Below, in pieces: positions 6,260 through 63,070 of a stretch of DNA of 64,000 nucleotides. The notes beneath the pieces were generated by a model. The model searched no databases and was not told where the DNA came from. It was given only the letters and a program-made list of their open reading frames with translations. How positions within the stretch are numbered: position 1 is the stretch's first letter; each line of letters opens with the position of its first letter. Position numbers and translations under genes: made by a program. The stretch is taken from positions 521,001 through 585,000 of the forward strand of contig JAQGDQ010000018.1 in NCBI GenBank assembly GCA_030141605.1, read 5' to 3'. The DNA is from Tubiluchus corallicola. Lineage: Eukaryota; Priapulida; Priapulimorpha; Priapulimorphida; Tubiluchidae.

Positions 6260-9200
6260 ATGGCAGCAACAAAAAGAGCTTGGAAACTACGTATGTACAG
6301 AATATACTATTGTATTTCTAGATACAATTTCAATAATTTTATTATGATTATGTTTATGTCATTACATGAATAACTGCATCTATACACAGGTTTTGCAATA
6401 AATTTGGCCTGCTGCCTTCAGAATAGTGCTGCTGGTCATTATTGTGTGCACTATGCACTATTGCCCTCAAGCTGTTGCATTATTTGCATACTATTCTAAA
6501 GCTGCAATGTGCAGAAGAAATATACAACAGAGATTGCTTATTTTTGTTTTTTTAACTATTTCAAAAGAATTAGAAAAATGATACCCATGAAGTGCTAGAA
6601 TGGCACAATAATAATGTTTAACAATATATGCAACGTCACATTAACCTTTGTTGCTCTATGTGAAATGCAGTCATTGTAGCAACATTTGTGTTTTCTAAAA
6701 ATTTTATTTTTTAAGTATTTTTAGTTAAATGCTAAAAACATACTTTCAGGAATATTATTTTTGCTTTCGTGTTATGGCAAAAGTAAGGGAAGACGTATTA
6801 AGATATTTTTGAACACAAAACATGTAAAAAACATTATTAAATGTTACCCTATTGTGCTTATGGATTCCATTTCATTATTTGTATACTATTTGTATTTGTT
6901 AAATCATCATATGTATTAAATATTACAGAAGAATTTGTTGCTCATGCTGGCAATGTAAACTGTTTGGCTCTTGGCCATAAATCTGGCCGGGTTATTGTCA
7001 CTGGCGGAGATGACAAGAAGGTCAATCTGTGGCTTGTTGGGAAGCCTACTTGCATCATGGTAATGATTGTAAAGACTGTTATGTCTAAATAATAATCCAC
7101 TAATGTGCTTGTAATTTATACTATACTGTTTATACTTATCAGAAATGCATATTAGCAATAAGAGAGTTAAGCTAGCTTGTCTTCTACCAATTTACCATTG
7201 GAACGTGCTGACATGCAACAAAGGAATGAATTTTTTATTGATTTTGCTTTACATTCGAAGCCTTCTCAAAAAGGTTGTACCGCAATGTGCTTTTAACTTG
7301 CTTTAACAACATGCAGGCATTCACCTCGTAGGTGCATTAATCAAACGTGAATAATCATAGGTGCTGTAGTCTATTAATTTTAACTTGCCTTATTGAATTT
7401 TGTGTCATATTGTCATTCTATGTCAATACTTAATTAATAAATTTGCTATTAGTCCATAAATTCCGTCTATGCTATATATCAAATGAATGATGCTTTTCTA
7501 TGTTAGTTATTTCACAGCATCTTTGTCTAATTTACATAAAAACAGGTTGTAAAGAAATTACTGAATTTAAAAACACAAAAACACCATGTTCGTAACAATA
7601 CTTTTTTATTTTTTTTTGTTTTTATTTTTCTCTGTTTGTTTTTCAGAGCCTTTCTGGTCACACTACACCAGTTGAAGCTGTTCGCTTTGGTGGGACAGAA
7701 GACAGCATGGTTATTGCAGGTTCTATGTCAGGTGCACTAAAGATATGGGATCTCGAAGCAGCCAAAAGTAAAAAAATATTGTATTGTGTAACTTGTGGCA
7801 AAGCCTGTTTTATTACGTTCAAGTACATGTAATTTGATTCTCCTTTAGTTATGCTTATTCGTAGATCCACTAAAGATGTCTAAAATTTACTGTTGCACTT
7901 GAATGTTAGGCATAAACCCATCCTCTATGAATAAACTAAAATGAATACTGTAAACTTTCTTATAATCTATTGCTATCCGTAATATTTTTTGTTTCAATAG
8001 GTGTAGGACTTATAGTATGAAATTATTGATTTATTCTTTTGGGACATTAAATGTAAACAAATTGAGTTTAGACTGGTAAATTTTGGTAGTTTTCTTCTTT
8101 CATTGTCTGGTAACTGTGTAAACTATAAACCTATTGCTTATAAATCCTTTACTTCCTGTAAGTAGTGCAGAAATCAAATTAGAGATTTTTAATTTTGTAA
8201 TCAATATTTTGAGTTCTTACATGTCTTCAGATATTCCTGTATAAGGAAGTGCTTTTATTGACATTTTATATAGTCGTGCGAACGTTGACAGGCCACAAGG
8301 CTAATATAAGAAGCCTGGATTTTCATCCGTTTGGCCACTTTATAGCATCAGGTTCAATGGATACAAATGTGAAACTGTGGGACATTAGACGGAAAGGTTG
8401 CATATTTACATATAAGGTAAAGTCATCATTGTCTTGCCACCAGTACCATTACTGCTTCGTCTGTAGAAGAAATTCATTGCATCTAACTCTGGTGGTGATT
8501 TATGCCTTCATTGTGATTTATTGATCTAGCCATTAAAACTATTAAGTATGCACAACATGTTGAGACCATAGTATATTGATTTCTGGTTTCTTTCATAATA
8601 GCTATAACGGTTATGCTCGCATTTTTATTCTGACCTCACATTTAATATTATTTTGTATTACTTTCAATATTCGTCATCATGAAGGAGTTGAACAGTATTT
8701 GATTACAGTGTTTTGCATTTATTGCAGGGCCATTCTGATACTGTTCGATGTTTAAGATTCAGTCCTGATGGTAGGTGGCTTGCATCAGCAGCTGATGACA
8801 GTCTAGTTAAGGTATTATTTAGCTTTGTTTACACATTGTAATTTAGGTTGCACAGTGTCATATGTTGATGTGATCTTAAATAACATTTTTCTGTATCCTA
8901 GATATGGGATTTAAGTGCTGGCAAGCTATTGACGGAATTCAGGGAACATTCTGGGTCAGTAAGTGGTGTAGAATTTCATCCAAACGAATTTCTTCTAGCA
9001 TCTGGCAGTGCAGACAGGTTAGAGTCATTTCGTACTATTAAATTTCTCTAAGCAGATTTTTCAAACTGTATGATTAGCGTACTTGTTGAGATTTGTGTGG
9101 TACAAGTGACCATATTTTTTATTTTCAGAACTGTGAAGTTTTGGGACTTAGAAACATTTAAATGTGTTAGCTCCAGTGATGGTGATTCAGGGCAAATTAG

Positions 9201-15200: not shown

Positions 15201-18200
15201 TATTGCACTGCATAGTTTCTAGTGCAATTTGATTGTTTTGTGTTTTTGCACAGCGTGCGGTGTAATTTAAATCTGCATGATTCCATTCCTAGGTGAAAGT
15301 ATTGCACCTGTTGTAGCTGCAGGTATACCATCGGTAAAAAAATTAGAGCCAGCTCATGTTAAGAAATCAGATTCCGCTGCATCTTTACCAGATAAGGAGC
15401 GCAAAATCAAAGAAAAAAGTACAGGTTTGGTGTGCTGTTTTATGCATACTTTGTACATTATGAGTTGCAAATTTTCCGCAAAGAAATAATTTGTTTTTTG
15501 CTTTAATAATTTGAGTTTGCGCAAAATGTTTGCTTGTGCAAGTGCAGTGTCACAGATGAATCACAACTGCTTGCCTTTACAAATTTTGTTGCATTTTTTC
15601 CATTTTATCTCAAACTTTTTTGTGATTTCAAGTCATAATTATGCTGTAAGCATTTATGCAGTAAATGTTTCAGTTCTGATTCATTATGCACAATATAATT
15701 TTTATTACATTTAGTTAATAAGAGTTTGCATGTTTTGCATGTTTTATAGTTAGAAGAAGTACCTCATCTTCATATTTATATCGACCTCAGTCACCTGGTA
15801 AGAAACAACTTTTCATTTCATTTTTCTATTGAAAGCAAATATACAAAGCTTACTGTGTAAAGTGCAACAATATGTGGCCAACTCTACAGCCACTTAGGCT
15901 TCTTAAAAATGGTCTGATATTTTTTGACAAAACAGAAATAATGTTATTGCCCAGAAACATTTGTACAAAGATTGTAGTCAATGTGAATTTCAGATGCTTG
16001 AAATTTTATGACATACCTCTTTCTGTTTTTGTGTTTGTGATTTTTAGGTTGTTTTTAGCAAAATTTATTTTCATTAGATAAAGTAGCTCGAAGTAAATCT
16101 GGAAGTCGCCACGGTTCACCTGCTGTGGTTCGGCGCAATTCACCTTTGACAACTAATGCATCCACCACTAATATGGAAACAAATACAAGTAAAATTTGAG
16201 AGCTTAGTCTGGCTGCTTTTTTTGCTAACAGGCATAGCATTTTCTAAAACTGTAGCTATAATTGAAAATAATGAACTGCTAACAACTTTTGTGCACTGAT
16301 CGTATTAAAAACAAGTTTTGTATCTGTACTAACTACATTTGAAACACATCTGACATTTTGAGCTTGCATATTATGTGTGCACCCTAACATTTCTTACCTA
16401 CAAAATATTTTAAAATTTGAATATTTGGAACAATTACAGTCTTTTCATTTTGATTAACTTTAAATCTGTATTTTTTTATTTCCTTTTGTGTTGTATTAGC
16501 TATATTTATTTATTGCTTTTATTTATTGCTTATGTTTTATTTATTCAGAATTATATGTTACAGTTAATGTTCTTATAATGTGAATTAAAACAGTTTTTTG
16601 GCATGACATTATCCTTAACATAATGTGACATCAACCTATAGTTTAACCACAATGTATTGCTAATTATTGTTATTGTTAACTAAATCGTACAGCAGATTAA
16701 TCAACTCTAACAATAACAAACAACACTCAATCATTGGTGACTAGAGGTGAGCTAAAATTCTGTGTGGCCAAATATTTAGTTACGAATGCAAGTCAAGTAT
16801 GTAATTTTGGCTTGTGTACTTCTTAAGCTTCCTCACCACGCAAGGTGTCATTTGTTATTTATCGTAAAATAATTATTCAATTTTTATACAAATAGCAAAA
16901 GCAGTTTTTAACTGAACATTCAGTTACAAGAAAGCACATTTCACATTTTAATGTGGAAATATTGGGTTTCGTTCAGGGCAAAAAGCCTGGCAGATGTACA
17001 TTCAGTTTGATGCGAAACAAATGCCAGTCTTACTTCTTATTTTATGTGTTGTGTGAAGATTCAGTAACATGTATTTCTTATTTACTTTTGGTATAGTCTG
17101 ACTTACATGTGGTAGATATTTTTGTGTTTAGGTAAATTCAATATACTTTTAATATTCCAAAAAATGACTGAAAAGGCTGTTTAGTACTTAAATAACTGAT
17201 AGATTTTGTTTTTGTAGAAAAAGAGAAGAAAGCCGCTGCTGTTCGACAAGAATCTGCAGGAAAAAGTCCAGAAGTTATACCAGTCCCAAGTGACCGACCT
17301 GTTGGACTGAATATGTGTGACTTTTTACCTGTATGTTGAAAATTTAGTCAAATATTCTATAAATCAAATTTGTTAAATGAGGAGAGTGGCTATTATCTTC
17401 AGTCTTTATGTTTACCAAAATGAGTGAATGACACCAATTTACATTTAATGCTATTCTTTTTTCGGTTCTTATTTTTGCCAAGAAGTTTCCATCCCATTGA
17501 GCAAAAAATAACCTATGCAAAATAAATAATATTAAAATAATCGTTAATCTTGTTGGTTGCTTAATTCAACTGCATTTTCCCACAGAAGCAGATAAGCAGT
17601 AGTGCCAAGGCTTCGCGTTCTGTGTCTGAAGAAGAATCAATGACTGCATTAATGTCTGGTCACAATTCTATGGCAGCTGTTCTCTCAACACGACAAAAAA
17701 ATCTTCAGGTTGTACGAACTATGTGGACAAACAGGGATATTAAAGTAAGACTTATTTGCATAATTCTTCTTGTTGAGATCCTTAGAACTGTATTACATTT
17801 GTTATCAGTTTACAGAGAAAAATTTGAACAACTGTAATAATAAGGAAAGGTTACTATGTCGAACACAGGGAAGGCTATACTAGTTCGTTGCAGTTCTGTG
17901 TAATTGTTTTTGTTGAGGGGTGATACCATTGCTGTAAAGGCATTTCTAAGGTACATACACAACTTGTAACGATAGCCATTAACAAAACAGAGGAAGGCTT
18001 GTAACCCAATGCCTCTTTAACATTAGAATGATTGAGAAATTTGCCCACCTGGAAAACCAAGTGGCCAATTTTCATCTCTGCCATTTTTTAAAGAAAAAGA
18101 AAGGGAAAAACATTCTTTTTTTGTTATTAAGGTTAGTAGTATCGATTAATTAATTTGCTTGGCTAATTATTCAGACTAACTAAAAAGTTAAATACACTGA

Positions 18201-22893: not shown

Positions 22894-23567
22894 ATAACAA
22901 TAACTTTCCACCAGAAAATGTACATGCAGTTTAGTGATTTAGCACCAGTCTATGCAAGCGTTAAAACAATTTACAATGAATAACTGTTTGGTTTATTGAA
23001 GGGATATGTCCTGTGTAGCAAAACAAAACCTGCAACACCATGATTAAGACCAAATACAGATTATCTAGATACCAAAATGAAAATTGTAATTAAACAAATA
23101 TATAGATATGCATTCATAAAACTAACAAGACAATTTAAAAATGCTACGCTGTAGTACACACTCTGATTATGATATGAAATACTAGTTCAGACAGAACTGA
23201 CAAAACTAAAGTAACTCCCTTGTTCACTTTATAACAATAACTTTTCACCAGAAAATGTACATGCAGTTTAGTGATTTAGCACCAGTCTATGCAAGCGTTA
23301 AAACAATTTACAATGAATAACTGTTTGGTTTATTGAAGGGATATGTCCTGTGTAGCAAAACAAAACCTGCAATACCATGATTAAGACCAAATACAGATTA
23401 TCTAGATACCAAAATGAAAATTGTAATTAAACAAATATATAGATATGCATTCGTAAAACTAACAAGACAATTTAAAAATGCTACGCAGGAGTACACACTC
23501 TGATTATGATATGAAATACTAGTTCAGACAGAACTGATAAAACTAAAGTAACTCCCTTGTTCACTTT
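22894..23567. repeat. 337-bp direct tandem duplication (two copies)
   Basis: Copy 1 (22894-23230) and copy 2 (23231-23567) abut exactly with a period of 337 bases. By eye they differ at only about seven positions, so the duplication is recent. The unit has no coding potential I can see and no terminal inverted repeats. It lies downstream of both flanking genes, which converge here. Confidence 0.9.
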
Positions 23568-24529
23568 AGTATCGCTTGAGCTCATCACCATGTTTCAAAC
23601 TATACAAGAATATTCCACCACTTTTAAGTACCAAATTGAGGTTATCACTAGGACGTCAAATTATACAATAATAACTTTGCAGTGACTTCACAATAACATA
23701 AGAGCACATAAGTTGCCACTTAAGAAATAACAAGTTATACGGTCAAATATGCTTTCCTAATTACATCTAACACATAATGCTATCAGTTATCACCCACTCT
23801 GTTACATCATACTTGTAAAAATATTCAGTAATTGTAAAATTTACTGGTAGATACACAAATTGTTAATTAAAGCATCTAATTTTGAATACAGTTATGAATG
23901 TACAACAGCACCGCTGTAGCACGTTTCTAGCGCTAATCATTTTCAATTGAAAGCAACATCATTTAGTTCTAATTATAAGCAGTTAAGTGGAAAATCAAGT
24001 ATTTTTGATTGTGCAATTACTAAGCATTTTAAGCAATGCAAACAAAATAAAAATGACAGCACTCAGCTTCTAAAACTCTTTCCGCAAAATAAAGTAAAAA
24101 ACTAAACAAAATGTCACACTAAAAAATATAAACCAGCAAGAAAATGGACACTTAAAAACTAGTGTGTGTGCGCACATTTCTTCATAAAATATTCTACTTA
24201 AAAGAAAAGCATTCATGGAATGCATATACCTATGTGTTGCAAAATTGAAACAAAAACAATAATAAAATATCTCTGTTTGTTAAAACTTATAATAAATATA
24301 AACCAATTAATGAAAACACCTTTAATGTAATAATAACGATAATAGAGAGAACATCCTGTCTCCAAAATATAACAAACCATTTGACAGTAACTTAAATTAA
24401 AAAAAATGATAATTAATAGGCAGAGTTTTCACAAGTGGATTACCCTTTTAATTGGTATCAATTATCCAAATGAAAATTAAGTTTACATGGCTTTAAAACT
24501 TGTTGCCATTCACTCACTAGCACCACATT
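23568..24529 (-). other. probable 3' UTR / downstream region of the zinc-finger gene
   Basis: No ORF or splice context supports a gene here. An ATTAAA on the minus strand (24447-24452), about 80 bases beyond the zinc-finger stop codon, is a candidate polyadenylation signal. The rest is AT-rich with no recognised element. Confidence 0.4.
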
Positions 24530-43665: not shown

Positions 43666-44470
43666 TTAATATGGCCGTGGGTATATGAATTCGGAATTAG
43701 TGTGTATGTTGTCGTACTGGTGTGATGGTATTTCATATCTGGTTAATATTAGTGATTTTAATTTTGTTTTAAATGCTGATAGGGACTTGATTTGTTTAAC
43801 CTGTAATGGTAGAGAATTCCAAAGTAGAATTGCTTGTTTGATTACAGAGTTCGTTCCATAGTGGCTATTTGTCCTAATTTGTTTTAGATTGCTTGTTCTG
43901 TAATTAACGATAGGATTTGGAAAAAAAGGTAAATCTGTTATTCTGGAATAGTTTGCTGATGTTGTTAATGTATTTAAATATAAAAAGCAGAGTAAAATAT
44001 TCTTTGTGTGCTTCAATGATTGGGAATTTTAAAGTTTTTCTCAGGTTAGTTGTTGAAGCTTTGAATTTTTGTCTACCTGCCTTGTGTTTGTATGAGTACC
44101 CAGCTATCAATCTCAACGCATAGTTTTGAAGGAGATTTAATTTTAAGTAATTTTCTCTTTTGGTTTTTTGAAGTAGCGTACATCCATATAAGAAGTGTGA
44201 TAGAACTAAAGTTTTATATATTAGTGTTTTAGTTTCCTTTGTTAGTTGCCCTTTAACTTGTCGGAGATACGATGTGCTAGATGCCATTTTTGTGTATATG
44301 TTATTAAAGTGATCATCCCATGAAAGATTATTGTCTACTTGTATGCCCAGGAATTTAACATTGTTAGTTTGTTTGATTACAGCATTATCTATTGTCAAAG
44401 TGGTTGATGATGCATCATTAGTATTTAATGAGGGTGACAGTATCATGAATTCTGTTTTGTCATTATTCAT
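43666..44470 (-). pseudogene. LINE ORF2 C-terminal part
   Basis: Two overlapping frames (44470-43904 and 44016-43666) continue the reverse transcriptase: NNDKTEFMIL and KFLGIQVDNNLSWDDH, then the C-terminal block with AILLWNSLP and FKTKLKSLI. The change of frame near 43990 is a further disabling indel. Confidence 0.8.
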
Positions 44471-45066
44471 TTTAGCTTGTAATGACTAAATGCCATATTT
44501 ATATTTTTTATATCTTCTTCTAAATAATTTTTTGCAGTTTGGACATTTTCATAGGCTATGTAGATTGTAGTGTCATCAGCGTATTGCGTTATTTGTGAGT
44601 GTTTTAATACACTGGATATGTTGTTTATATATAGGCAAAATAATAACGGACCTAGTAGTGTTCCTTGCGGTATACCTCTGTTTAATGTGGCCCAGTCAGA
44701 AAAGTTGGTTGTATCTAACTTTACTCGTTGTTGTCTATCTTTGAGATAATTTTGTATCAGTTTTAACGATATCGAATCTAATCCGATTTGTTTTAAATTA
44801 TCGTAAAGTAGTTCGTGATTAATGCTATCGAAAGCTTTACTTAAATCCAAAAATGCTGCTAAAATGTATTGCTTGTTGTCTAAACTATGTCTCCAATTTT
44901 CTGTTGTGTGTATTAGGGCGTCAATGGTTGAATGGTGTTTACGGAAGCCAAACTGATGTTTTGATAAAAGTTCATGTTTATTTACATATGAATTTATCTG
45001 ATCATAAATTACCCTTTCCCAAACTTTGCCGAAACAATGGATTACGGAAATTGGGCGATAATTCAT
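44467..45066 (-). pseudogene. LINE reverse transcriptase core
   Basis: 199 codons with the RT blocks in order: NYRPISV, HQFGFRKHHST, FLDLSKAFDSINH, RGIPQGTLLGPLLFCLYIN and YADDTTIY (the catalytic YADD). These residues are intact although the ORF is cut at both ends by frameshifts. Confidence 0.9.
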
Positions 45067-46193
45067 GGGATCACATTTTGGATCTTTTTATGGATTGGAG
45101 TCACGTTTGCCATTTTACATACCGTTGGAAATTCGCCTCTCATAATTATCTGATTAGCAATGTAAGTCATATGCGGGGCTATTACAGATGCACTATCTTT
45201 TAGAATTTTGATAGGAATATCTGATGGTCCACTCCCTTTGTTGGAACTTAGGTTATTTAATATGTCGTTAATTTCTCCTACTGTGACGCTTTTGAATGAG
45301 AATACTGTGTTAGACGATTTGTTTTTTAATTTATTAATTATATTATTGCTAATATGAGAAGCCACTCCCTTAAAATTTCCAAGATTCAGGAATATTGCAT
45401 TTAGCGCATTGGCAATATCTTTGGGTTTTGTAATAAAAGTGTTGTTGATCTTAATTTCGTCAACACGCGTTAGTTTGTTACGGCATTTATTTATTACATT
45501 GTTAATAATTTTCCATTTTTCTTTGGTAATTGTTGCATTTTTACATTGTTGTTGTATATGTTTATTTTTCAAGCATTTATTAAGATTATTAAATTGATTT
45601 CTCTTTTTTTTATAATTGTTATGATTGTTTTTAGTTTTGTTCTTTTCCCATATATTATACATTCTGTTTTTCGCTATTCTTAGTTTGTCAAGTTCAGGTG
45701 TTGTCCAGGTACTTTCGTTATTGAGTTTGCTTTGTTGTGGGATTTGCTTTACGTTTTTATATGGTGCATGTACATTAAGGCAATATTCGACATTATATGT
45801 CAGAATATTAACTTGTGTATCTATTTTATCAGTCATATATATGGAGGTCCAGTTCATTTTTGCTAAGTCGATTAAGTATGAATGTTTGTTGTATTGGGCG
45901 TAGTCTCTCATTAAATGCCAGACTGAATTTTGGTTATTATTATGCTGTGGGGTCATTTTATCTACTAATATTGTGAAATGATGATCTGAATAATCACACG
46001 GGAAAGTATCATATGCTACGAAATTATTGTTACTATTCGAAATGAAATGGTCGATTACTGTGGCTGATGTTTTAGAAATTCGAGTAGGTTTATTGTTGTT
46101 AAGTATGTGGACATTATATTGTTTTAAGAGCTCTGTGTATGTTTTGTATGCCAGTGTGTTTGTAGCTAAAATATCAAGGTTGAAATCGCCCAT
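45063..46193 (-). pseudogene. LINE endonuclease-to-RT portion of ORF2
   Basis: 376 codons from the GDFN motif of an AP-type endonuclease through SDH to the start of the reverse transcriptase (LSSNKGSGPSDIPIKILK, then ANVTPIHKK). The frame ends in TGA at 45063, exactly where the next ORF begins in another frame, so a one-base indel separates the two. Confidence 0.85.
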
Positions 46194-47173: not shown

Positions 47174-48238
47174 CAAAACAATGAAAGAAATTAGTAATCA
47201 TAAAACAAACAATTCATGAAAAAGGTGAAGTACGTAAAAATATCAGTTTTTACTTTTATGCATTTACTTTGGCTGCTATTACTTTCACATGTAATCTTGT
47301 AAACACACATATTACCATATAAACACACACACATATTTAAAAAAAGCACTTAAAGGTAATTCGTACTTTTTCTTAAATTACACTGACCATCAGTTAGTTA
47401 TAAATATAACGTTAATTAATATGATCAATGTCAGAGTTTGAATTTTCTTTAAAAAAATAAGTTTCTTATATCAGTTAAAAAGTTAGTTAGAGAAATACTA
47501 GTAAAAAGTTTAAAAGATGCAAACATAGTGCCACAGTAATAATAGATCAATTTATTCATTAAAACTTTAACACTCTCATTACGTCTACAATTGACTATCT
47601 TCCCTATAGGCTGTGTTCCAGCAAACTTTTAAAACATTTTCTTGCTCACAAGATAATGAGCCAACTTTACGGCGTACAATAGAATTATTGGTAAACAGGT
47701 GTGCATTATCAAAGTTTTAGACATCATTTTGTTACATCTTTCTCTTAGAGATGACAATATCGAATTCAAAAATACGTCAAATTTGCTGTTTTTATTGTAA
47801 TGTCTATTATAGAGCTCTTACCTGATTTTATATTCCTAAATATTCGTTCTCGTCTTTCCGAATCTGTGTTTTACTTTAATATATATCAAAATTACTTTAT
47901 ATTTATCTTTATTTATTTAACGTGGATTAACAAAACAGTTATAAGTGATACGAATCTCAAAACGTGCAGGTGCTAGTGACACTCATTAAAAAACGCATAA
48001 TTCAACAATCAACAGGATTTTCAACGCAAATAACGTTAATTATGCATACATTATAGTAAAGCGGTGTAATATGGACACGCGGGTAATATGGACCCTTTGG
48101 GTCAAATTTAATTTGCTCTCTTACAAGTATTTGCACAGTTAGTCCATAAAAGTTGAAATGTATAATAAGCTGGTAGCTTCAGCTTTTGCAGGCTTGAATA
48201 AGGGGTTCATATTTCCCAATTCAATCTGTGAATGTAAG

Positions 48239-49227
48239 TAAAAATGGCATAGGAAAAATGGCACGGTAAAAATGACACAGAAAAAATGGCACAAGAAACA
48301 TGACACAAATAGAAAATTGGTAAAAATTACACAGGAAAAAAATGGCACACTTAGAAATATATGTAATTACGGTTAGGATTACAGTGGGGTATAATTATTT
48401 TAGCTATTTTTACTTCTGCCATGGAAATTATGTTTCAACACAGTTTGTTTGTTTCGTTGTTTTTTGTCTGTTATGGGAACTTATGGCAATAAGCCTTTTA
48501 CGCAAAAACTATCTAGCAGATTTCCAAGAAACTTTGTGAAGAAAGGTGGGTATAGAAGCGCAAATTTTTTCGTCGATTCTTTATTCGCAGTAATTTGGCA
48601 GAATACCACGTACAAGAAACGTTCGTGAAGCACTTCATGGAGGTCTCGGAGGTAGTCTTTAGTACTTTATTATCTCTCCCAGGACACACAACTACGAGTT
48701 AGTTTCAGGTTCCATTTCGAGAAAATCTAGCTTGTAAAACTGTGTAACGCTGTCTATAATCCTTGCTTATTAATGCGTATAATCGTATAAGGTGACTTGG
48801 TACGTGTATATTTGCCAGTTTATCACCACCGCCAAAATTTTTGTAGATAAATACTATGTGGAACATGCGTGCATTATTGATTATAAATCAATTTAATGAA
48901 CAAATATTTTGCTAGTCTATATAATACCAACACAAGTGCATATTTGTGTGTTTGCTTGTTTATCTTTGTGTTAAATTTTTTGGATCAAATGAATCAGACA
49001 AATAAGATTAGAATTGTTCGGCTTTGGCAGAGATCTGCTTCCTACCGAATGCATTAGCGCATTCTAGTTTCATCATAGAAATCAATCATTATAGAAGGCA
49101 CCAAAATAACACGTGCCATTTTTCCTATTTTTCCATTTGTGCCATTTTTACCTGTGCCATTTTTTCCTGTGCCATTTCTTCGTGTGCCATTTTTACCGTA
49201 CCATTTTTTTCTGTGCAATTTTTACCA
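48239..49227. mobile_element. foldback element with inverted minisatellite arms
   Basis: The left arm (48239-48350) is a run of ~14-base units like TAAAAATGGCACAG. The right arm (49110-49227) is the same array in reverse orientation, and both arms carry an ACAAATRGAAAA variant at a comparable place. About 760 bases lie between them. A third array with the same units and ~200 bases of matching flank is at 62771-63070. This fits a foldback-type nonautonomous DNA element. No transposase is present. ORFs across the arms are by-products of the repeat. Confidence 0.65.
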
Positions 49228-50054: not shown

Positions 50055-52427
50055 CTAGTTGAGACTGAATTCCGTGAACTGCATCATTACAACAACGTAC
50101 GTGAAGTAAAGACTAGCAATCTGAAGCAAACACATAGTTTTGTATAAGAGTCTGTTATATGTATGTATCAAGGACGAGATCTATTAATTATAGCAAGAAT
50201 GTTAATTGATAATGAATAAGCCCTTATATATATATACACATATTAAAATTTAATTGGCAATAAATGTCTTTCAGAAGATCTCAACTTGGTGATAAGCAAA
50301 AAAGCATGCACTCAAACATTTGAATATTCCTACATAATTTTTTCAAAAAAAGTGTAAAATGCAACTTACCGTGAGAATTACATCCTTTGTTATGATAATT
50401 ATACCCCAGTAAGTGAAACCAATTTTGTCACTGCTAAGTTTTGACAAGAGTAAGTTTATCTGCAAAACATTTATTCATAATTACGTATTGTCATTATTGT
50501 AATCCATAAAATTAAAAGCTGAATCTCAAACTTTGTTTATAAGCACAAAACTTTATAAGACTGATTAATGAACCATAAACGAAACTGATACCAATTCTTC
50601 ATGGGTATAGGCTTCTGGATTTTTGATAAAACGAAAATTATCACTAGGCTGTATGAGGTAGATGGAGCTAGTTGATTAGTAAATCCCAAAAGCGCTAAAA
50701 ATAAAACGGAAAACGATCATGCACTCACGCACGCACGCAGCACACGCACACATACACACACACACACACCGTTTTAATGTTAAATAGGCATTTGTTGATC
50801 TTATGACCTTTGGCCTATAAAACCAAAAGTCAATGGGTTTCCAGCTTTTGCCCTGGCCTTTTCCTTTGTCAGGTATATAGGCTTTATAATATATAGTGTT
50901 ATACTTGTAGGACGAATTCATTTACAGCATCCTTTGACTGAACCCGACTCATGGTTAATCTGGTTGCACTGTCGTCCTTGTACATTTCCAAGTCGTACAT
51001 CGACACTAGTGCTCCTTGTGCCTAAAAATAATGCGATAAATCTATGAACGATGCTAACTACATTAAGTATAATATTAACATATGTATTATGTTAATTATC
51101 ATAGGCATAAGTTTCACGTAACTAAACTCCTGCCGTACTAAACATGAAAACTGAAGATTAAGAAACAAACGTAAAAAGAAGTAGAGATCCAATAGAAAGT
51201 ACGTTCCTTTCAGGCGTATGTCAGAGATTCAATGATTTAGTTGCAATGTTGGCAGGACAACCACAACTTGTTTTACTTTTCGCTTATATTTCGCTTATTT
51301 TCTATACACTCTTATTTTAATTTTAATAGATCTGTGAAACATTTTATTGCTTATTTTAAAAGACAAATTAACAATTAGACATGATCATTAATTAAGTGAA
51401 AACATACCTCCTGGTACAGTGACGCAGCATACACAGAGATAAGAAATAATATGGATAATGTAACCGCCAACCAAAATCCGTTGATGATCATTATAATAAG
51501 ATTTGAATTAACATCACGAGACATTCTGATGAGGTCATAGGTATGCACTCCGGCATTAAGTATGGTCATAGTAAAATAGAAAAAAATTATTTTCTTAAAA
51601 TCTTCATCTGCTATTTTCACCATTTTTGTAACGCTTTGATGTCTGCGGCGCAATTTTTCCAACTGAACCGAGAGGTCGTTGACAGAAGTATCTCTGTTAC
51701 GGATTAAACTTGTTAATGATTCATTCAAATTTTCGTATTCCGTGCGAAAAATTTCACAAAGTCCACAAAAAAATGGTAACGGGAGTATCCATCCGAAGCA
51801 CACAATTGTTGTCAAAGACATGAAAATTATTTTCGTGTGGAACTTTGGCTCAAATGGTACAGCAAAAATTGTAAAAAGCTTGCGACTTTCTTCTATTGGC
51901 CCAAATGCATTAAATGATAACAAGCTTGAATTCAGGAATGAAACTACCCAACCTACGGTGACCAAAACACGAACATGACGTGTAATTCGGTTTGTAATGA
52001 CTTCACTGAAACAGACATCTTCATGAAAGTATCTGAAGATTACTTGAAAATGGCGTTTTTTTCTGAAAGCATTATGTATGACTGCAGTATTGCAAAACAC
52101 CATAAAATGCCAGCTGGCAACAACTGCAAACCATAGTGGGGAAAATAGTGTATTTTGTAAGATGAAAGTAAACAGATATCGAACAAGCTGAACAGCCAGA
52201 AATAATAAAATCACTGCAGAATAACTCAAACTTATCCATCTCAATAACGACTGATTTTCGTTGGGACTTTGCATTAGCGGACACAAACCAGTAACGTAAA
52301 GACTTCGAAGAGCTGGCTTCAGCAACTGATATAATTTGTTTTCACCATCGTCACTGACTGGTGCGAGTATCTGCTTCGTGTATATCGGATTGACTTTCCT
52401 GGATGATTTCAAGCTGAACTTATACAT
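50055..52427 (-). CDS. gustatory-receptor-like seven-TM protein, copy 1
   Basis: Four minus-strand exons: 52427-51408 (340 codons), 51021-50905 (39), 50459-50370 (30), 50120-50055 (21 plus stop), total 430 residues. All introns are GT-AG in phase 0. The start is the ATG at 52427; an in-frame TAG lies just upstream. Seven hydrophobic segments are visible, six in exon 1. The last exon reads YFTYVVVMMQF, matching the TYhhhhhQF signature of TM7 in insect gustatory receptors and animal GRLs. Exon 3 has the preceding conserved block (FTYWGIIIITKDVILT). Insect Grs are chemoreceptor cation channels with a cytoplasmic N-terminus. In other animals GRL roles are mostly unknown and some are developmental. 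AATAAA follows the stop within ten bases (50045-50050). A close paralogue lies directly upstream. The ligand cannot be inferred. Confidence 0.9.
50721..50770. repeat. (CA)n/(CG) microsatellite in GRL copy 1 intron 2 region
   Basis: About 50 bases of alternating CA/CG between exons 2 and 3 of GRL copy 1. Confidence 0.9.
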
Positions 52428-53547
52428 AGCTTCCTTCGTCTTTGATGGCAACTATAGTTATTACATAAACTTTCTATTTGGCCAAACAGCCTCTATTTAA
52501 CGAAGGCAATTTCGGTTAACTATTTGCAATGTACAAGTTATTGATCGGTGCATAATAGAAAACTGAAAATGTCTTTTTGCTTATTCGGTTTGTTTGAAAT
52601 AACAGAATAATATATCATAGTGACATCGTTGCGTGGGCACTCTTGCGTGAGCTAATATGTGTCTTGAATGTTGACCCAAAACAGGATAATGCAATGCAAG
52701 CGAGGTGCTTTCACAACTGTATCGTTATTATTACTAATTGACCTTAGGTACATATGCAGTTCAATAATTAATTATTGCTGCACTAACAACATGAAAACAG
52801 AATATAATAGGTAACTTATTTATAAATACGACTATTTTACCACTTATTTGTAAAAAAGGAACACAATAAATTACTGCTTCAACACATTTACAGTTATGCA
52901 TTTATTTGGCAAATCTCGTTCGAGATTGCAAAATAGGAGGTATGGTGTTGCAAATGGCGAAAAATATCTGTAAGTTTTATGAGGTAATTTCATCAGACGC
53001 TCGCCATGCTTATCTAGCAGCTCTGAATTCAATGGCTAAGTATTTAAAGTCATAACGACTCGCTGGTACTTCGTTTCAATTTGAAAAGAGTTACTCACAA
53101 AACTCTTCGACAAATAACATTTTGAGCCCAGCAGGCATTTATGGTGTTGCTAAACATGGATATAGTTATACTCAAGTCTTACAGCAAAAATGTGCATTAT
53201 TGAAGATTGCATGTGCACAGAGGCTGATATGAGTGGCTAAACTGTAGATTGCGTACTGTAGAGTAAATAGCAATTTCGTAAACAACAATATCTTTGACAT
53301 ACTGTAAGAACTGAAATACGTTATTAATACAACTAGACAAAATTTCAGATTTTTCTCTTTAAAACTATGAGAGGAGCAATATCAACACAAAATCAGCACA
53401 AACAACAACAGACGAAAAAGAAAAAATGCAAAAAATCGAATGAATTAAATTCTCACATGCTAAAGACGGGAAACTGCCCCTTAATAACTACGAAGTCTGT
53501 AGTCATGATTCCAACTTTGAATAGATAATTCACTTGCATGGGGTACA
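52428..53547. other. spacer between the two GRL genes
   Basis: 1.1 kb between the end of GRL copy 2 and the start of GRL copy 1, both on the minus strand. It must hold the end of one transcript and the promoter of the other. No TATA box at a convincing distance and no repeat were recognised. Confidence 0.5.
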
Positions 53548-56500
53548 TTAAGCAAAGTTGAATTGCATCATGATGATAACGTACGTGAAATACACACTTG
53601 CCAACTGAAACAAAAAGAAAAGTGTTAAAACCTAATCAATTAAGGCTACTGCTTAGATTTTTTTATGCAAATGTGAAATAAGCCTTCAGAATGATGAAGA
53701 TAATGAGTGGGGGTGTTTTGCAAATTCTAATTTTTCTTTGCATTAATTTAGTTTTATTTGTGTTAACATTGCAATAACTGTAATAAGCGATTCACAGTTA
53801 TGTTAACGTATTTCTTACGAAGATCACTGCATTAAATGACATTAGTATACAAATGAGTATTACCGTGAGAATAACTTCTTTTGTGATTATAATGATTCCC
53901 CAGTAAGAAAATCCCACGCTGCTATTTGCAAGTTTCGACGTAAGCAAATTAACCTATAAAAGAAAGTTATCTGTGTACATAGTCCCATCAAAAACGAAGC
54001 TTTCTGACTACTTGTGCATAACTAGTTACACGAAATTAAGTGGGATCGATCAAATCCATACTGACTATAGCAAACAATAAATGCAAGCTTTACAGGCCAC
54101 TGTGTCGTCATGGTATGACACTCATTCATTCATTCCTTATCATTTATTTCGACATTCATTACAATACAATATCAATACATACACATTTAATATAATGTAT
54201 TTCATTATAAAAAACGTATTAATGTCAAAAAGACTAGTCGAGGAGAGATTACCTCTAAGGCATAAGCCGCTACCAAAAATGTTACCGATTAATGGCAACG
54301 AGTGCCACGCTGCTTTCACTGATTTACATGCAATGCAGCAAATTTTTGTGCCCTTCTGTACAAATTTTATTGCATGGAAAAACTGAAAACACACCATTCT
54401 TTGTTTTGTTGTCATCGTCGTCGTAGTCGTTGGTATTGTAATGATCATCATTTTCGTCGTTGTTGTCGTCATTGCTTTTGTTGTTAGTATTGTTGCTAGT
54501 CTTCCTGTAATTTCTCTTGACTGAATTAAGCATTATATTGTGAGTGGTATAATACAAACAACGTTATTACCGACCAAGTCTAAAGAAGAGAGTGGCTAAT
54601 AACGTAAAAAATTTTCTTACTTTCCAGCGTACTGACAGATGAATAACCTAGACAATGAAGAGTGACAACGCTCAAACTTTTCTAGTTTTTAAAGAGCCAT
54701 TCGGCGTGATAAGCATGGACATTATGATGTCGGTTCTTTACCTTTATGAAAGTATCAAAATAATCTTGCCCTGACAGTCATAGACCAGGTAATGCATTAT
54801 TCTACCCTTGCCAAGTCGAGAGGCATATGCTGTGACAAGTGCCTTGTGCCAATTTATATCTCGCCACAGTATTCCTAAAACAATCTTTGCAGAGAGATGA
54901 ACCAAATTCACTTCAGCTCTTATTTAAGATCTAGAACAACTTTTAGGAATACAAAGGCATGTTCAAATCCCATACAATACAAAATGTAACAGGTTATGTG
55001 AAAGAACGAACTCTTCCCTGAAACAGTGAATCAACAAACTGACTCAAACAAACAAATGTCTGAACTGGGATGAGGTGCTTTCCTTCATTCCTTTGCTTAC
55101 TGGGTAGAAACTACTAAAAAGGCGCGATTTGATCTGGTCTAAGGGTACGAAGTGAGCAGACCCACAGCAACACTTCGTCATACCGGAGGATGCAGTGAAT
55201 CTTGTTCAGTGTAATGTTGAATATGTTATTCAAGTATTGCATTACCTAAAATCTTACACCACAGAAGCCTAAGAAGTCTTTTTGACGACAAAATTGGTTG
55301 AGAAAGAGTGATATAACCAATATAGGTGAAGAAGGACCCCGAAGTTGTTCAAAAAGCTTTCCTGCCATTACCAATTAATCAGAGAAAACTGGAAACACTT
55401 CTTCGTGGTCTGTATGGGGTCAGTGAGAAAATCCCTGATGAATTTTACGGTATTAGTTGCATTCCTTTCCAGAGCGAGACGAATGGGATATTCTCCTTTC
55501 ACACAAGTGCGTTTAAGAAGCAGAGGTTGAGAGTGAGAATGTGCAACTTTTTTTCCGAAGATGAACAGTCGTCCGATTCTGATTCTCAACCAAAGTTAAG
55601 ACATTCTAGAAGTTTCAATACTATGTCGTTTCAGTAATGCTAGGATCGATGCTTCCCAACTAACACGGTTAATGCAAGTTATCTGAACACTTAACACCTT
55701 CACAACAATGTGAACTGAAACACGTCTTTGAGCACAAAGAGATTCTTTCCTAGTAAACCTGACATGACTCGTCTTATCAAGCATGACGAAAAGATCAGAA
55801 CTGATGAGCCAGACCAGACAAAATTTTATAACATTCAAAGCCCGTTATAGACTTCCCCAAGCCAGAAAAAACCGTGAGAGACGAAAAAAGGAATAAATGC
55901 TTTCCGGTAGAATGATAGCAGAAATAGACGACGTATTTCAAAGTCCAATAGCTTCTGCTCCTAAAGAAGGTGGAAGTATTCGTCTAGCATTGATTTTCGC
56001 AAAGTAAGCTGTCTCGCCAATTGTGACTTCTATTCAATTCCAAGAAGATCACATGCTCAACCAGCTCCACAGTGCCAAATCCCTCTCAAAGTTGATCATC
56101 ACAAAATACTATTGGCAAATTCCTCTTGATGAAAAATCTAAACCCATAACCACTTTTGTTGCAAAATTTGATAAATTTAGATTTAACGTAATGCCTCAGT
56201 GGCTCCAGCTCAATTCTTAGTAGACAAGATTCTTACACCAGCTTTGCACAACGCCTTTGGCTTTATTGGTGATACTCTTATCAAAAGCAGATCCTGGGAG
56301 GAATACTTGGAACATCTGTCAATAGTACTATTACCAATCAAAGAGGCTGGCTTGACAGTAAAGACTTCTAAATCCGAGTTTGCCCAATATCACTTTAAAG
56401 GCTTAGGTCACTTTGTTGGAGACAATGCTTTGTAGCCTCAAATTGAAACGAAACAACACTTTTGGTAAATTTTCGGCAACGAAGGCCTGCAACGAAGAAA

Positions 56501-59500
56501 CAGATTAAATCCTTCGTTGCCTAAGCCGGTTATTACCAGAAGTTCATAGAGATATATTTAAGCAAAGCAGATCCATTACACGAGCTCACCAAGAAGGATA
56601 AACCAAATGAAACCTGTCACGAAGAATGCTAGAAGGACTTTCTTTGTCTTCAAAAAGCATTGAATCCCAAACTTGTTTTACGTATACCAGCTCACCAAGG
56701 CTGGGTTTAATTTTTTATTGAATGCGCAACATTTCGTGCCCCTAAATCGCCTTTTTTCTTTCTTTGACGGTACGTACATAGTCCCTTTGTTTTTTATGGA
56801 CCCTCTCAACTTGTTTATACGGCTGGTTGCAAAGCTGAGCAACAAGTTTTTAATGTTTCCTAAATTTGCAATTTTTTATTGATATCATTAACCCAAAATT
56901 TGTAAATCTTGTTGTGCGAGTAAAGCAACATTACTTTCCTTGATAATTGGTCTGCGAAAATTCAGAAAGATCATAATTTCTTTTTGCTTTTCATTTCGCA
57001 CAACATTTCGAAATGTTTCAGTTTGTTTGTTATGTTCAACATTAAATAAATTAAAAGACAATGCAAACAATTGTCACTGATGTAATGATGCATTTGATAC
57101 AAAAAAGATACAAAGGTCATTTCTATTTAGAACGTGAATTGGTGGTATTTCGTCCTATGAAATAGTCAAACTTTGTTTTTTACTAGTGTGCATAGCATTT
57201 ATGCTATCAGCTACCCTTCAAGATCAGAATTTTTGTGATTATTATCTTGTTAACGTGTGAGACATTTATTCAAAGATTACGTAGATGGAAATATGCTCAC
57301 ATAATTACTACAATATAGTAGCAGATAACTGCCAATTAATTATAATCTTTCCGCCAGGGACGCCTCGACCCGCATTCTATCTATCATTATCATCCTATTA
57401 TCATCCAGGTGAGCGAGGTGTTCACGAGATGTTAGCGTGAATTTACGTTTTGGCTTTGTTTATGTAGACGGTAGAGTTTGTTTCCAGTTTGCTGTTCGTT
57501 CAATGTCTCAGTCGATTTTGTTACGTACCGTGAATCTATGGTGAAGTGATGCTGTGATGACGTCTTGTTGTCACGATCTCCTTGAATGACGTTCACTACA
57601 AGCTATTATCAAATCTCAGCTATGAAATTCGCACTCATTTCTGGCATTTGGTGCTAGACTGGCGTACACAGGTTTATGCAGGAGACTCCTTTATGCGCTT
57701 TGATCGTGACTGTACGTACCGAGTACCCACGAATGTTTGGAAAATGCGGAGTGAGATATCGCCAAGAATAAGGCTCTACGTGTATAATGTAAATCTTAAA
57801 CTCACCCGCTTACGTGCATAATAAGCCGGTTTCATGTTCCATCTCCCATTCCATAATCATGATTTTCATTTGCTAATTTGTTTATTGAGATTTTTGTAAG
57901 CGCTTATAATACGAAAATCCACCCCAGACAATCCAGGGGTGGAATTGAGATGCCGCTTTGATGGGGGGCTCTTCAATCTGTCGCGTTTTCGAGCCAGGAA
58001 CCGCACCACAACCTTCAGAGTGACAGAGCTGCAATATGCGGATGATAATGCGGCACCAGCCCACTCAGCCAATCACCTGCAACAATCAGTCAGCAACTTC
58101 TGTGACGCATATTCTCGCTTTGGCCTTACAGTCAACATAGGAAAAACCAAAGTTATTGTCCAACCATCACCTGAAGCAGACACACCAGTATGTAACATTT
58201 CCATTAATGGTGCAGATCTAGAATGTGTTGAACATTTCCCGTACCTGGGCAGTCTACTCTCCGTCCAGTGCAACTCAACAAAGGATGTGGAAAATAGGCT
58301 TAGAGCTGCCCATGCCGCTTTCGGCAGACTCTCAACCCGTGTCTTTGGTAATGCTCATCTAACTCGTCGAACCAAGCTGATGGTCTATAATGCTATTGTC
58401 GTTTCCACACTCCTTTACGGATGTGAAACATGGACTCTGTACCGCCAAGACCTGAAAAAACTCGAACAGTTCCACCAGAAAAAGCTTCGCTCAGTTTCCA
58501 ACATCAGATGGGATGATTATGTCACCAATAATTCAGTTCTCGAGAGATTAAACACCACTAGTATAGAAGCTATGATTACGAAACATCGGCTAAGCTGGGC
58601 AGGTCATGTAGCACGTATGGACGAAAACAGACTTCCCCGAAGGATCCTCTTCAGTGAGCTGAGCACTGGAAAACGACCCCTGGGCCGCCCTAGGCGCCGC
58701 TACAAGGACCAACTAAAAGAAACCCTGCAATCAGCAAGGATCGATCCAGAAACCTGGGAGCAGACAGCGCGGCAGCGAACAAAGTGGAGAAGAGTCATCC
58801 AGGAAGGGACTGAGCATTTTGAAACAACCAGACGAGCAGCAATTGAAGCCAAACGTCAACGAAGGAAAGAGAAGGCCCGTCAACCTCAGGTAACTCCCAC
58901 CATCCAATGTGACAAATGCACCAGAATGTTTCGAGCAAGGATCGGGCTGTTAAGCCACCAACGTGCCCACCACAGCTAGTAACTTCGACCGAAAGGACAA
59001 TACTCGGAAACGAGTGAAAGCCGACGACGACGACGATAATACGAAAAACAGATATGCCAAGTCGCTACCATTAATTTTACATGCGTTTTATTTTTTGGTT
59101 TCAAATGATGAATGGAGCTCCAGAAGTACTCCCGTAATAAATATAACATCAAAGTCCTTAGACCCTCCTTTTTATGGCCATCACAGGGAGCAAGAATTCA
59201 AACAATTATTTCAATGAATTTAGAGCCTACTTTCAGATAATAAAAAAGTAATTTTGGTTCATTTCAGCACCCTCTTTCCGAGAACGCTCCCTTAGTTCTA
59301 GATTGCATTTTTTGCCCAGTTTTCTGATGTCCTGTCATTTCACTGTGTAATTCGGTTGTCCTCTTTTTCACTGCCCAATTTTGTACGAAATAGAACAGCT
59401 GCCTTCTTTACAAAAGCTTCTTTACCCTCTATGGCTCTGTCTCTTGGTAGAGTTCTTTAAAACAGTATAAATTAAGTAAAGCTTACATAATTAATGAATC

Positions 59501-61546
59501 ATACAAGTTGAAACATGTTCATAACTATTACCTGCAAAATAAATTTGCTCATGACATCACAATGCTGCTCATAACTTATTGTCGATTTGGTAGCAATGTT
59601 AACAGCATTTTCGCACATTTTCAGATCGTAGATCAAATCCAATCCAGCATGAGCCTGGTAAATATAAATCGTGGGTTGAATATTACTGTTTGACAAAAAC
59701 GTTTTGTCACAATCACAGCCCGTCTCATAAAATAGTACATACGTTAGACATTTACATATGAAGGAAATAGATACTCTCACGCACACATGCATCAGGAGGA
59801 ACGTATGACCTAATAGTTAATTAACTGAAGGAGAAGGTGTTGAAAAATTGTAGGCTAACCAACGCATAAACCCAGAGCCACACGCACACACGCTCGCGCA
59901 CACACACGCATGCACGCGCACACACACACACACGTAGCAATTGACGATGTCACCAGACCCGGATTATCCTATAGGCTGGAGCCTATGGACCCTCAAACTT
60001 AAAGAGAGGGGCTGATTTTGAATTGCTGAGTAATTCATTTAGCTTAAAATAAAGTTTCAACTTTAAAAGTGTCCCCTGTTAGTGGCCCCTCATTTGATAT
60101 AAAGGGCCTCTGTTTGAGACATTTATGTGAGACAAAAGGTCATTGTTTGAGGCCCTTCATTTGAGATAAGGGACCCCAATTTGAAGATCTTTATTTGAGA
60201 TAAGGGGTTCCCAGGTATTTTTAAATGTCGGGTGGCTCCGTCTGAGGGTTCCATAATTTCATCAGAGCAGGGGCCCAAAATGTCATAATCCGGCCCTTGT
60301 TACACCGTAAGTACAGTACAACAGATTCTCAAGAGAACATTCGTGCCGCTATTTCTTGGATAAACTTTGCCTGAACTTAGTTCACATGATTAATCGTCTC
60401 ATTTAACACGGAGGAACTATTCTTATTAGATTGATGCAGCAGACTATATTTATAACAATGCAAAGATATCACCGAGCCTACCTCTTCGTGCAAGGCTGCA
60501 GCACACATAGTAATGAGCAACATAAACACCAAAACACTCAGCAACCAAAAAGAGTAGATAATGATGTCACTAAGATGCTGATCTATGTTTTGTAGAGCCT
60601 TTATTAGGTGAAATGAAAGTAAGCATGATCCAATTATTTGTGTTGTTAAAAGAACAAAGATAATCTTTTTGAAATCTTGATCAGCCAATTTCACAAGTTT
60701 GGTTATTAGGTGATGGTCGCGACGTATCTTTTCCAAACGAGCACACAAATGATCTATTGGCACATCTGCATAGTCTTGCACAAAAGACGCAATATAACCA
60801 TTGATAGTTTTAAATTGCACATGAAAAATGAGGCAGAGTCCAGCAAAATACGGTACAGGTAACATGTATGCCATTGTCACGAATGTTGTCAGCGTAACAA
60901 AAATGACTTTGGCAAACATATTTGGTTCAAACGGCACAACGAAAACCAAGAAGACCTTTCTACTTTGTTCAAAAGGCCCAAATGCGTTAAAAATAATCAG
61001 TGCCGTATTAACGAAGCATGTAATCCAACCAGCCACAACCATGATGCGAATGGTGCGCGTGATTTTCTTTGTAGCGGAATTATGGATGGAAATAGTCTCC
61101 TGGAAGTATTTATATAGAACGTCACTGTGGCCTTGTTTTCTGAAGGCGATGTGAATAACTGTGGTGGTGCAAAAGACCATGAAGTGCCAATTAGTTATTA
61201 TTAGCAGCATCATGAGGTTTGCGTAATCAGGCTGCAGTACGATTCCTAGAAAATAGCGTGCCAGATGGATGCCCAACAAAGCTAACACTAATGTGGAATA
61301 GATCAAGCTGGCCAAATGCCATAAGGTGTACTTTCCATTTAAATTCGGCATCAATGGACATAGACCGGCGACATTGAGGCTGAGCAGAGCTGGCTTTAAT
61401 AATGCGTATAGTTTACTCTCATTGGGGTTGATTGCAGGTATTGTCTGCAGGTGCTCCTTGTGCATTTTTAAACCATACTCCAAAGTGTCAGCAGGCTGAT
61501 CACCACTTTCACGTTCAACGTGTACTTTTGCATTTAATCTAAACAT
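53548..61546 (-). CDS. gustatory-receptor-like seven-TM protein, copy 2
   Basis: Four minus-strand exons: 61546-60482 (355 codons), 59654-59532 (41), 53953-53864 (30), 53604-53548 (18 plus stop), total 444 residues. The start is the ATG at 61546, with an upstream in-frame TAA. It parallels copy 1 exon by exon: the N-terminal KLYALLKPALLSL and GLCPLM, the WHFMVFC and IHIAFRKQGH loop, the acidic exon-2 segment ending in FILQ, the 90-base exon 3 (FSYWGIIIITKEVILT) and TM7 with YFTYVIIMMQF. All introns are phase 0 and GT-AG. Intron 2 is about 5.6 kb and holds a dead Ty3 element, a LINE 3' end and an unexplained ORF. I joined exons across it by similarity to copy 1, so a transcript would be needed to prove it. 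Function as for copy 1: predicted membrane channel or receptor, ligand unknown. Confidence 0.85.
55326..55637 (+). CDS. unexplained ORF or exon fragment inside GRL copy 2 intron
   Basis: A 103-codon frame follows an acceptor-like CCAATATAG. It has non-random features: a start rich in Leu and Pro (LPLPINQRKLETLL), then YGISCIPF, and a C-terminal Ser/Asp-rich tail (SEDEQSSDSDSQ) ending RSFNTMSFQ. It lies just upstream of the Ty3 pol remnant on the same strand. It could be a piece of that element, a captured exon or a chance frame. I do not recognise it. Confidence 0.3.
   Translation: MKKDPEVVQKAFLPLPINQRKLETLLRGLYGVSEKIPDEFYGISCIPFQSETNGIFSFHTSAFKKQRLRVRMCNFFSEDEQSSDSDSQPKLRHSRSFNTMSFQ
55740..56780 (+). 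mobile_element. Ty3/gypsy retrotransposon pol relic
   Basis: Reading across stops and small indels, the plus strand gives a Ty3 order: YRLPQAR upstream of RT, IRLALIFAK, the RT palm segment (YYWQIPLDEKSKPITTFVA, FRFNVMPQWLQ), the thumb side (VKTSKSEFAQYHFKGLGHFV), the GYYQKFIEIYLSKADPLHEL connection and the start of RNase H (LNPKLVLRIPAHQG). The catalytic YXDD block is degraded (IGDTL). LTRs were not found. It is an old, inactive fragment in intron 2 of GRL copy 2. Confidence 0.8.
57339..57904. other. GC-richer unassigned block in GRL copy 2 intron 2
   Basis: Composition rises above the surrounding DNA and one open frame (57582-57821) crosses it, but no family is recognised. It ends where the LINE fragment begins. 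Confidence 0.35.
57905..59045 (+). mobile_element. LINE 3' portion, 5'-truncated, with C-terminal zinc finger
   Basis: The element starts abruptly just before the YADD block of reverse transcriptase and runs to a 3' tail containing (GAC)n. It sits in the sense opposite to GRL copy 2, inside its intron 2. The coding remnant is described separately. Lack of stops across ~1 kb shows it is younger than the Ty3 relic nearby. Confidence 0.85.
57939..58979 (+). pseudogene. LINE ORF2 C-terminal fragment (RT palm to zinc finger)
   Basis: 346 codons, open. Contains ELQYADDNAAPAHS (catalytic YADD), NIGKTKVI, EHFPYLGSLLS, the LLYGCETWTL block, RLSWAGHVARM and GRPRRRYKDQLK. It ends with a zinc finger CDKC-x12-HQRAHH, typical of one LINE group common in invertebrates. 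The endonuclease and N-terminal RT are missing, so it cannot be functional alone. Confidence 0.9.
59879..59934. repeat. (CA)n/(CG)n microsatellite in GRL copy 2 intron 1
   Basis: About 56 bases of alternating CA with CG interruptions, potentially Z-forming, between exons 1 and 2 of GRL copy 2. Confidence 0.9.
59953..60300. mobile_element. MITE-like element with CCGGATTAT inverted ends
   Basis: The left end (CAGACCCGGATTAT) and right end (ATAATCCGGCCCTTG) are inverted relatives about 345 bases apart. The interior repeats variants of CATTTGAGATAAGGG several times. No coding capacity. GGCCGGATTA-type termini are known from several nonautonomous DNA transposons, but I could not settle the target duplication or superfamily. 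It lies in intron 1 of GRL copy 2. Confidence 0.55.
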
Positions 61547-62150: not shown

Positions 62151-62770
62151 TGCTTATAGCACGTAATCCAAGGATGTGTGCTGCAAGAACGAAAACTGCT
62201 GTATAAAATAAGTCAAGGGCTCCTAAATTTACATTTTAATGAATTCTTTGGTTATACCCCCCCCCCCATACAAAGGGTCTGAGAATTCATAGTATTACAC
62301 AGTATAAAAAATTTTGTAGATTAAACTCATTCAAATATTCGTTTGCAAACTGTGTTGTAAATATTTTAATGCTACTAACCTTAGCCGTTTTACTTTGCTG
62401 CAAATCAATTTTAATTCGTTATTAAACTTAACTTTTTTATATTTTAATAGAAATTTTAATTAAGAATAGCTTCCCTGTGTAAGCGGCATGTACCTGGACG
62501 AGGTTACACAAAGCCGTCACTAAGTTAACGACGTCGTTAATATCTCTTTAGTGACGATTTTAGCGAGCTCGTTAGCGTTTGCTTTTCACGCGATTGACAT
62601 TAACATTGACGATTCACACTAACATGATTGTAATAATTGAAGCCGTATAAAATGCACTAGCGTAGTAGTGACCTGAACTTGAAGGTTTCTGCCCTATAAA
62701 TTTAATTCCCTTCACCTATTTGTCTCGAACATTATAGAACATTGTTTGTTATCGACTTTCAGTGCACAGT

Positions 62771-63070
62771 AAAAATGGCACAAGTAAAAATGGCGCGGTA
62801 AAAATTGCGTAAGAAAAAATGGCACAGGAAAAATGGCATAAATGGGAAAATAGGAAAAACATGCACACTTGTAAAATACGAGTTTAGGATTAGGGTTTAC
62901 TGTGGGGGATAATTATTTTAGTTATTTATACCACTGTTAAGGATGTTGTGCTTCAACACTGTTTGTTTGTTTGGTTTGTTGGTTTTTGTCTGCTACATAA
63001 TAGCAAACTTATTATACAAAAATTACTTAACAGATTTCTAGCTCGAAGTTTTGCGAAAAAGGTGGCGGCA
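62771..63070. repeat. second copy of the AAAAATGGCAC minisatellite repeat family
   Basis: 62771-62870 repeats units of about 14 bases like those at 48239-48350. The next ~200 bases match the flank at 48360-48550, including GTTTGTTTGTTT and the CAACACTGTTTG segment. No inverted partner array is visible to the right, so this copy is one-armed or truncated. Confidence 0.7.

Follow-up and report, generated by a model that had tools for sequence, protein, structure and literature searches.

Results

Two adjoining spliced genes in the window

The window, the whole 64-kb stretch analyzed here (C1937:521001-585000), comes from an assembly of 343.5 Mb in 2344 contigs. It holds two adjoining genes on the minus strand, whose spliced models give proteins of 430 amino acids (GrA) and 444 amino acids (GrB). 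Both lengths fall inside the range of approximately 350 to 500 amino acids that PMC7746228 gives as a criterion for gustatory-receptor-like (GRL) and gustatory receptor (Gr) proteins. The features of the two genes, in window coordinates, are as follows.

51408..52427, minus strand: GrA exon 1, 1020 bp, ATG at 52427; whole protein except the last 90 residues
50905..51021, minus strand: GrA exon 2, 117 bp, phase 0
50370..50459, minus strand: GrA exon 3, 90 bp, phase 0
50055..50120, minus strand: GrA exon 4, 66 bp with stop; TYVVVMMQF motif of TM7
60482..61546, minus strand: GrB exon 1, 1065 bp, ATG at 61546
59532..59654, minus strand: GrB exon 2, 123 bp, phase 0
53954..59531, minus strand: GrB intron 2, 5,578 bp, GT-AG; contains a reverse-transcriptase-like frame on the plus strand (57939-58979)
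53864..53953, minus strand: GrB exon 3, 90 bp, phase 0
53548..53604, minus strand: GrB exon 4, 57 bp with stop; TYVIIMMQF motif of TM7

All six introns, three per gene, have GT-AG borders and lie in phase 0, every exon consists of whole codons, and the reading frames and splice sites of both genes are intact. The two proteins share 184 identities over 405 aligned columns (45.4%; E = 2e-129), and a tblastn comparison of their exon-3 regions gives 62% identity across 37 residues. A preliminary description of this DNA had placed a tandem gene pair at 50055-61546, each gene with a long first exon and three short phase-0 exons, and the same layout was recovered here; its statements that exon 3 measures 90 bases in both copies and that the short exons supply the two motifs also hold, with both motifs found in exon 4.

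We next asked how often such patterns arise by chance. An acceptor AG followed by TY, five hydrophobic residues, and QF before a stop occurs at two sites on both strands of the window, namely, those of GrA and GrB, and the exon-4-like pattern appeared once in 200 Markov-simulated 64-kb windows. A total of 77 open phase-0 segments of 90 bp bounded by AG and GT were counted on both strands of the window, and we therefore rejected the notion that the 90-bp exon length is remarkable by itself. What convinces is the sequence identity between GrA and GrB, whereas their common 90-bp length is weak evidence.

Other features of the window and genome

The window also carries other coding and repetitive sequence. 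Plus-strand exons at 6841-8524 and 17565-17837 resemble katanin p80, with three WD40 pieces (E = 9.9e-07, 8e-05, and 1e-12, the second below the cut-off) and a katanin con80 piece (E = 3.8e-07); we take the gene formed by these WD40 and con80 exons to be KATNB1-like (katanin p80). At 579-1508, a plus-strand open frame encodes a sugar-transferase domain of the DXD type (Gly_transf_sug; E = 4.9e-13). Three adjoining pieces at 43904-46193 on the minus strand hold retroelement-like frames, the middle piece matching RVT_1 (E = 2.5e-32), and the frame inside GrB intron 2 is a reverse-transcriptase fragment with a zinc-finger-like segment at its end (RVT_1 E = 0.0065, below the cut-off). A 337-bp unit is present in two tandem copies (98% matching) at 22894-23568, and short tandem arrays with a unit near AAAAATGGCACAGG, in both orientations, flank the receptor genes at 48238-48307, 49138-49226, and 62764-62841. 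A tRNA scan of the window under the bacterial setting was negative, and none of the Rfam families reached its gathering score there.

In further searches, TTAGGG arrays gave 63 and 45 hits (0 and 0 in the reversed control) and TTAGG arrays gave 74 and 196 hits (38 and 79 in the reversed control). A cytochrome oxidase search gave no match, which does not prove absence. Likewise, neither the arthropod cuticle domain PF00379 nor the mollusc haemocyanin domain PF14830 was matched; both were also missing from all 14 control genomes, and these results do not prove absence. Mainly from the PF00379 result, we tentatively regard the animal as probably not an arthropod; the telomere-type repeats did not decide this, since both kinds of array occur.

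Profile and structure searches

Spliced GrA matches the Pfam family 7tm_7 (PF08395) at 1.5e-11 (44.6 bits) over profile positions 1-366 of 370, and spliced GrB matches it at 4.6e-6 over positions 1-367 of 370, with a score of 26.6 bits that equals the curated cut-off (26.6) exactly. GrA additionally matches the related family 7tm_6 (PF02949; 6.7e-08, 32.4 bits, residues 161-363), whereas GrB gave nothing for 7tm_6 at an E of ≤1. At this threshold, 7tm_7 in both proteins and 7tm_6 in GrA are the sole Pfam families. These near-full-length matches bear out the preliminary assignment to a gustatory-receptor-like family, as do the 7tm_7 matches of two paralogs described below, GrC (6.4e-07) and a copy on contig C1349 (1.4e-13). 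All three members of alignment A2 match 7tm_7. GrC also matches Trehalose_recp, the insect sugar-receptor family, slightly better than 7tm_7 (2.1e-07), over the C-terminal half only.

The preliminary description held that exon 1 lacks the family signature. This is accurate for 7tm_7, which neither exon 1 matches, but not for the related 7tm_6, for which GrA exon 1 by itself scores 27.5 bits against a cut-off of 25.8; GrB exon 1 by itself has no Pfam match at an E of ≤1. As had been predicted, calling genes from open reading frames would thus misname them, as an "odorant receptor" (7tm_6) in the case of GrA and with no family in the case of GrB. We considered an odorant receptor as the best full-length assignment and rejected it: although GrA resembles insect odorant receptors in matching 7tm_6, it scores higher and over a longer span with 7tm_7 (44.6 versus 32.4 bits), which is the sole match of GrB. 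The likeness to insect Grs (Gr43a, Gr64a, and BmGr9) lies in the profile and the motif, to which GrC adds its match to Trehalose_recp; GrA differs from them in having no sequence match to any PDB chain. A profile built from GrA, GrB, and GrC retrieved eight PDB matches, all nanobody-like and all with E values of 1.2 or worse.

Structure prediction was run on exon 1 only, with an alignment of GrA and GrB exon 1, and produced a poor model (pLDDT 44.5, pTM 0.40). With this model, Foldseek placed chains of Gr64a, MhOr5, Gr43a, and BmGr9 in its top 15, none significantly, and the remainder were ABC transporters. The top VIA-align rows were unrelated helical proteins; the 50 rows listed include one insect receptor chain (AgamOR28, rank 41), no Gr chain, and several G protein-coupled receptor (GPCR) chains (e.g., TAS2R4 and ADP-bound purinergic receptor 1). 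Because the exon-1 model is too poor, neither search carries weight. A crude hydropathy script returned nine segments rather than seven, from which neither helix count nor orientation can be read.

Paralogs in the genome

A genome search with GrA returned 15 matching pieces, including a third gene of the cluster (GrC, plus strand) and the C1349 copy. GrC lies just outside the window in head-to-head orientation to GrB, at approximately C1937:592.6-596.9 kb, and was located in two of the extracted stretches of this contig (L001:7594-10000 and L002:1-1864). Directly beyond the window, 5,000 bases read as N (L001), and these may hide another gene.

Searching the genome with the 7tm_7 profile gave 44 exon matches; the window's own genes are absent from these because exons were scored singly. 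Five contigs (C1796, C2016, C2136, C2140, and C2209; L017-L021) carry the same three matches with equal spacing and scores. A 6,001-bp GRL stretch, compared around the first of the three matches only, is identical in all five contigs (0 mismatches) and begins 19,928 bp before the contig end in each. This identity and common end distance make 12 of the 44 matches look like assembly duplicates, and the five-contig stretch is probably an assembly duplication.

GrA is 59.1% identical to the C1349 copy, 45.4% to GrB, and 41.8% to GrC, and in a tree it pairs with C1349 (100/94), with GrB next and then GrC. These identities and the tree led us to reject a recent tandem duplication of GrA and GrB, since GrA is nearer to C1349 than to GrB; judging from their sequences, the two neighbors are old paralogs. 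Between GrA and C1349, the closest paralog found, dN is 0.274 and dS is 1.631 (dN/dS of approximately 0.17); dS is high in this pair and saturated in the other five. For exons 2 to 4 alone, dN is 0.235 and dS is 0.629. GrA is therefore under constraint relative to its C1349 paralog, and we infer constraint on GrB from its intact frame and 45% identity only.

Intron layout across paralogs

To compare exon layouts, we took 16 stretches chosen, nonrandomly, from the 7tm_7 and GrA hits; joining L001 and L002 left 15 loci. Nine of these contain an exon-3-type phase-0 exon of 90 bp and 10 contain an exon-4 motif of the TYhhhhhQF type (eight contain both), while L004, L006, L007, and L013 show neither pattern. 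The search patterns were built on the window's exons and the known motif and miss diverged exons, as in L015, where tblastn recovers an exon-3-like stretch; in L004, 5,000 N lie downstream of the gene, where exons 3 and 4 would be. In L009 and L010, this exon 3 can alternatively be read as 84 bp long.

The first intron is distributed differently. It follows an AAxLxEE-like end of exon 1 in GrA, GrB, GrC, and C1349, and a phase-0 donor stands at the equivalent place in L004 and two L005 genes, whereas eight exon-1 frames read through this site in frame (L007, L008a, L008b, L009, L010, L012, L014, and L016). A tree of 21 rows, in which the midpoint root serves the drawing only, puts the eight read-through rows in one group (100/99) and the seven intron rows in another (98/97); the first-intron state was left out for L006, L011a, L011b, L013a, L013b, and L015. 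A search for a middle exon in the other GRL clade did not find one.

The first intron is thus clade specific, and the four-exon layout as a whole is accordingly not deeply conserved. The deep conservation proposed in the preliminary description stands in part: distant paralogs share the final two introns, the 90-bp exon 3, and an exon of the TYhhhhhQF type, but not the first intron. The hallmark introns and the TYhhhhhQF motif are described for the family in PMC9998090, and by this published description the introns would be homologous with those of insect Gr genes. Set against the animal GRL family, GrA and GrB carry its profile match (7tm_7) and TYhhhhhQF-type motif; they differ in that only the last two introns are widely common to paralogs in this genome.

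Discussion

We conclude with high confidence that GrA and GrB are intact protein-coding genes of the animal GRL family, which belongs to the insect-type seven-transmembrane ion-channel superfamily (Pfam 7tm_7). In support, the spliced frames are intact and carry the TM7 motif, the profile match is full length, distant paralogs have the last two introns in common with them, GrA is under constraint against a paralog, and relatives occur throughout the genome. Insect sweet Grs are tetrameric ligand-gated cation channels with pore helix S7b, according to PMC11062906. Judging by insect relatives of solved structure, GrA and GrB probably encode ligand-gated cation channel subunits: these subunits would sit in the membrane and assemble as tetramers, the TM7 part encoded by exons 3 and 4 would line the cation pore, and a small ligand would open it.

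Other readings of the two genes fare less well. Membership in a different seven-transmembrane family (e.g., the GPCRs), with the motif a coincidence, is extremely improbable; GrA lacks a PDB sequence match and GPCR chains appear among the VIA-align rows, albeit from the poor model, but 7tm_7 and, in GrA, 7tm_6 are the sole Pfam families at an E of ≤1, and the motif exon, phase-0 introns, and paralog pattern are concordant. That either gene, or both, might be a recent pseudogene or go unexpressed we also regard as very unlikely. A retroelement fragment does lie in the 5.6-kb intron of GrB, but every frame and splice site is intact and the dN/dS of approximately 0.17 between GrA and C1349 argues against decay.

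The biological role is less constrained than the family. A function in chemosensory cells is our default guess for GrA and GrB. The two genes could instead act outside chemosensation, for example, in development, which we consider unlikely though worth keeping in mind: a cnidarian GRL has reportedly been implicated in body patterning (attributed to Saina et al. 2015), and sequence fixes no role, but a large, divergent, and partly clustered family would resemble a receptor repertoire more than a single developmental gene. More doubtful still is a scenario in which the GRL family of this probably non-arthropod animal has expanded to several dozen genes and the clade found in the window forms an old lineage of its own, marked by its first-intron position; instead of tuned taste, this clade might serve a distinct conserved role, for example, as a shared co-receptor subunit or a developmental signal.

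GRLs are listed for Annelida, Nematoda, Mollusca, Echinodermata, Hemichordata, Cnidaria, and Placozoa, and not for Chordata, in PMC7746228; in a starfish paper, "GRL" denotes an unrelated GPCR (PMC6267866). Both the family and the exon layout are familiar from earlier work, the layout being a published hallmark, and since GrA and GrB fit the published GRL and Gr description, they are ordinary added members of a known family. Annotation from exon 1 only would mislabel GrA and leave GrB without a label. The spliced models add members with exact exon borders to a channel family about whose roles outside insects little is known.
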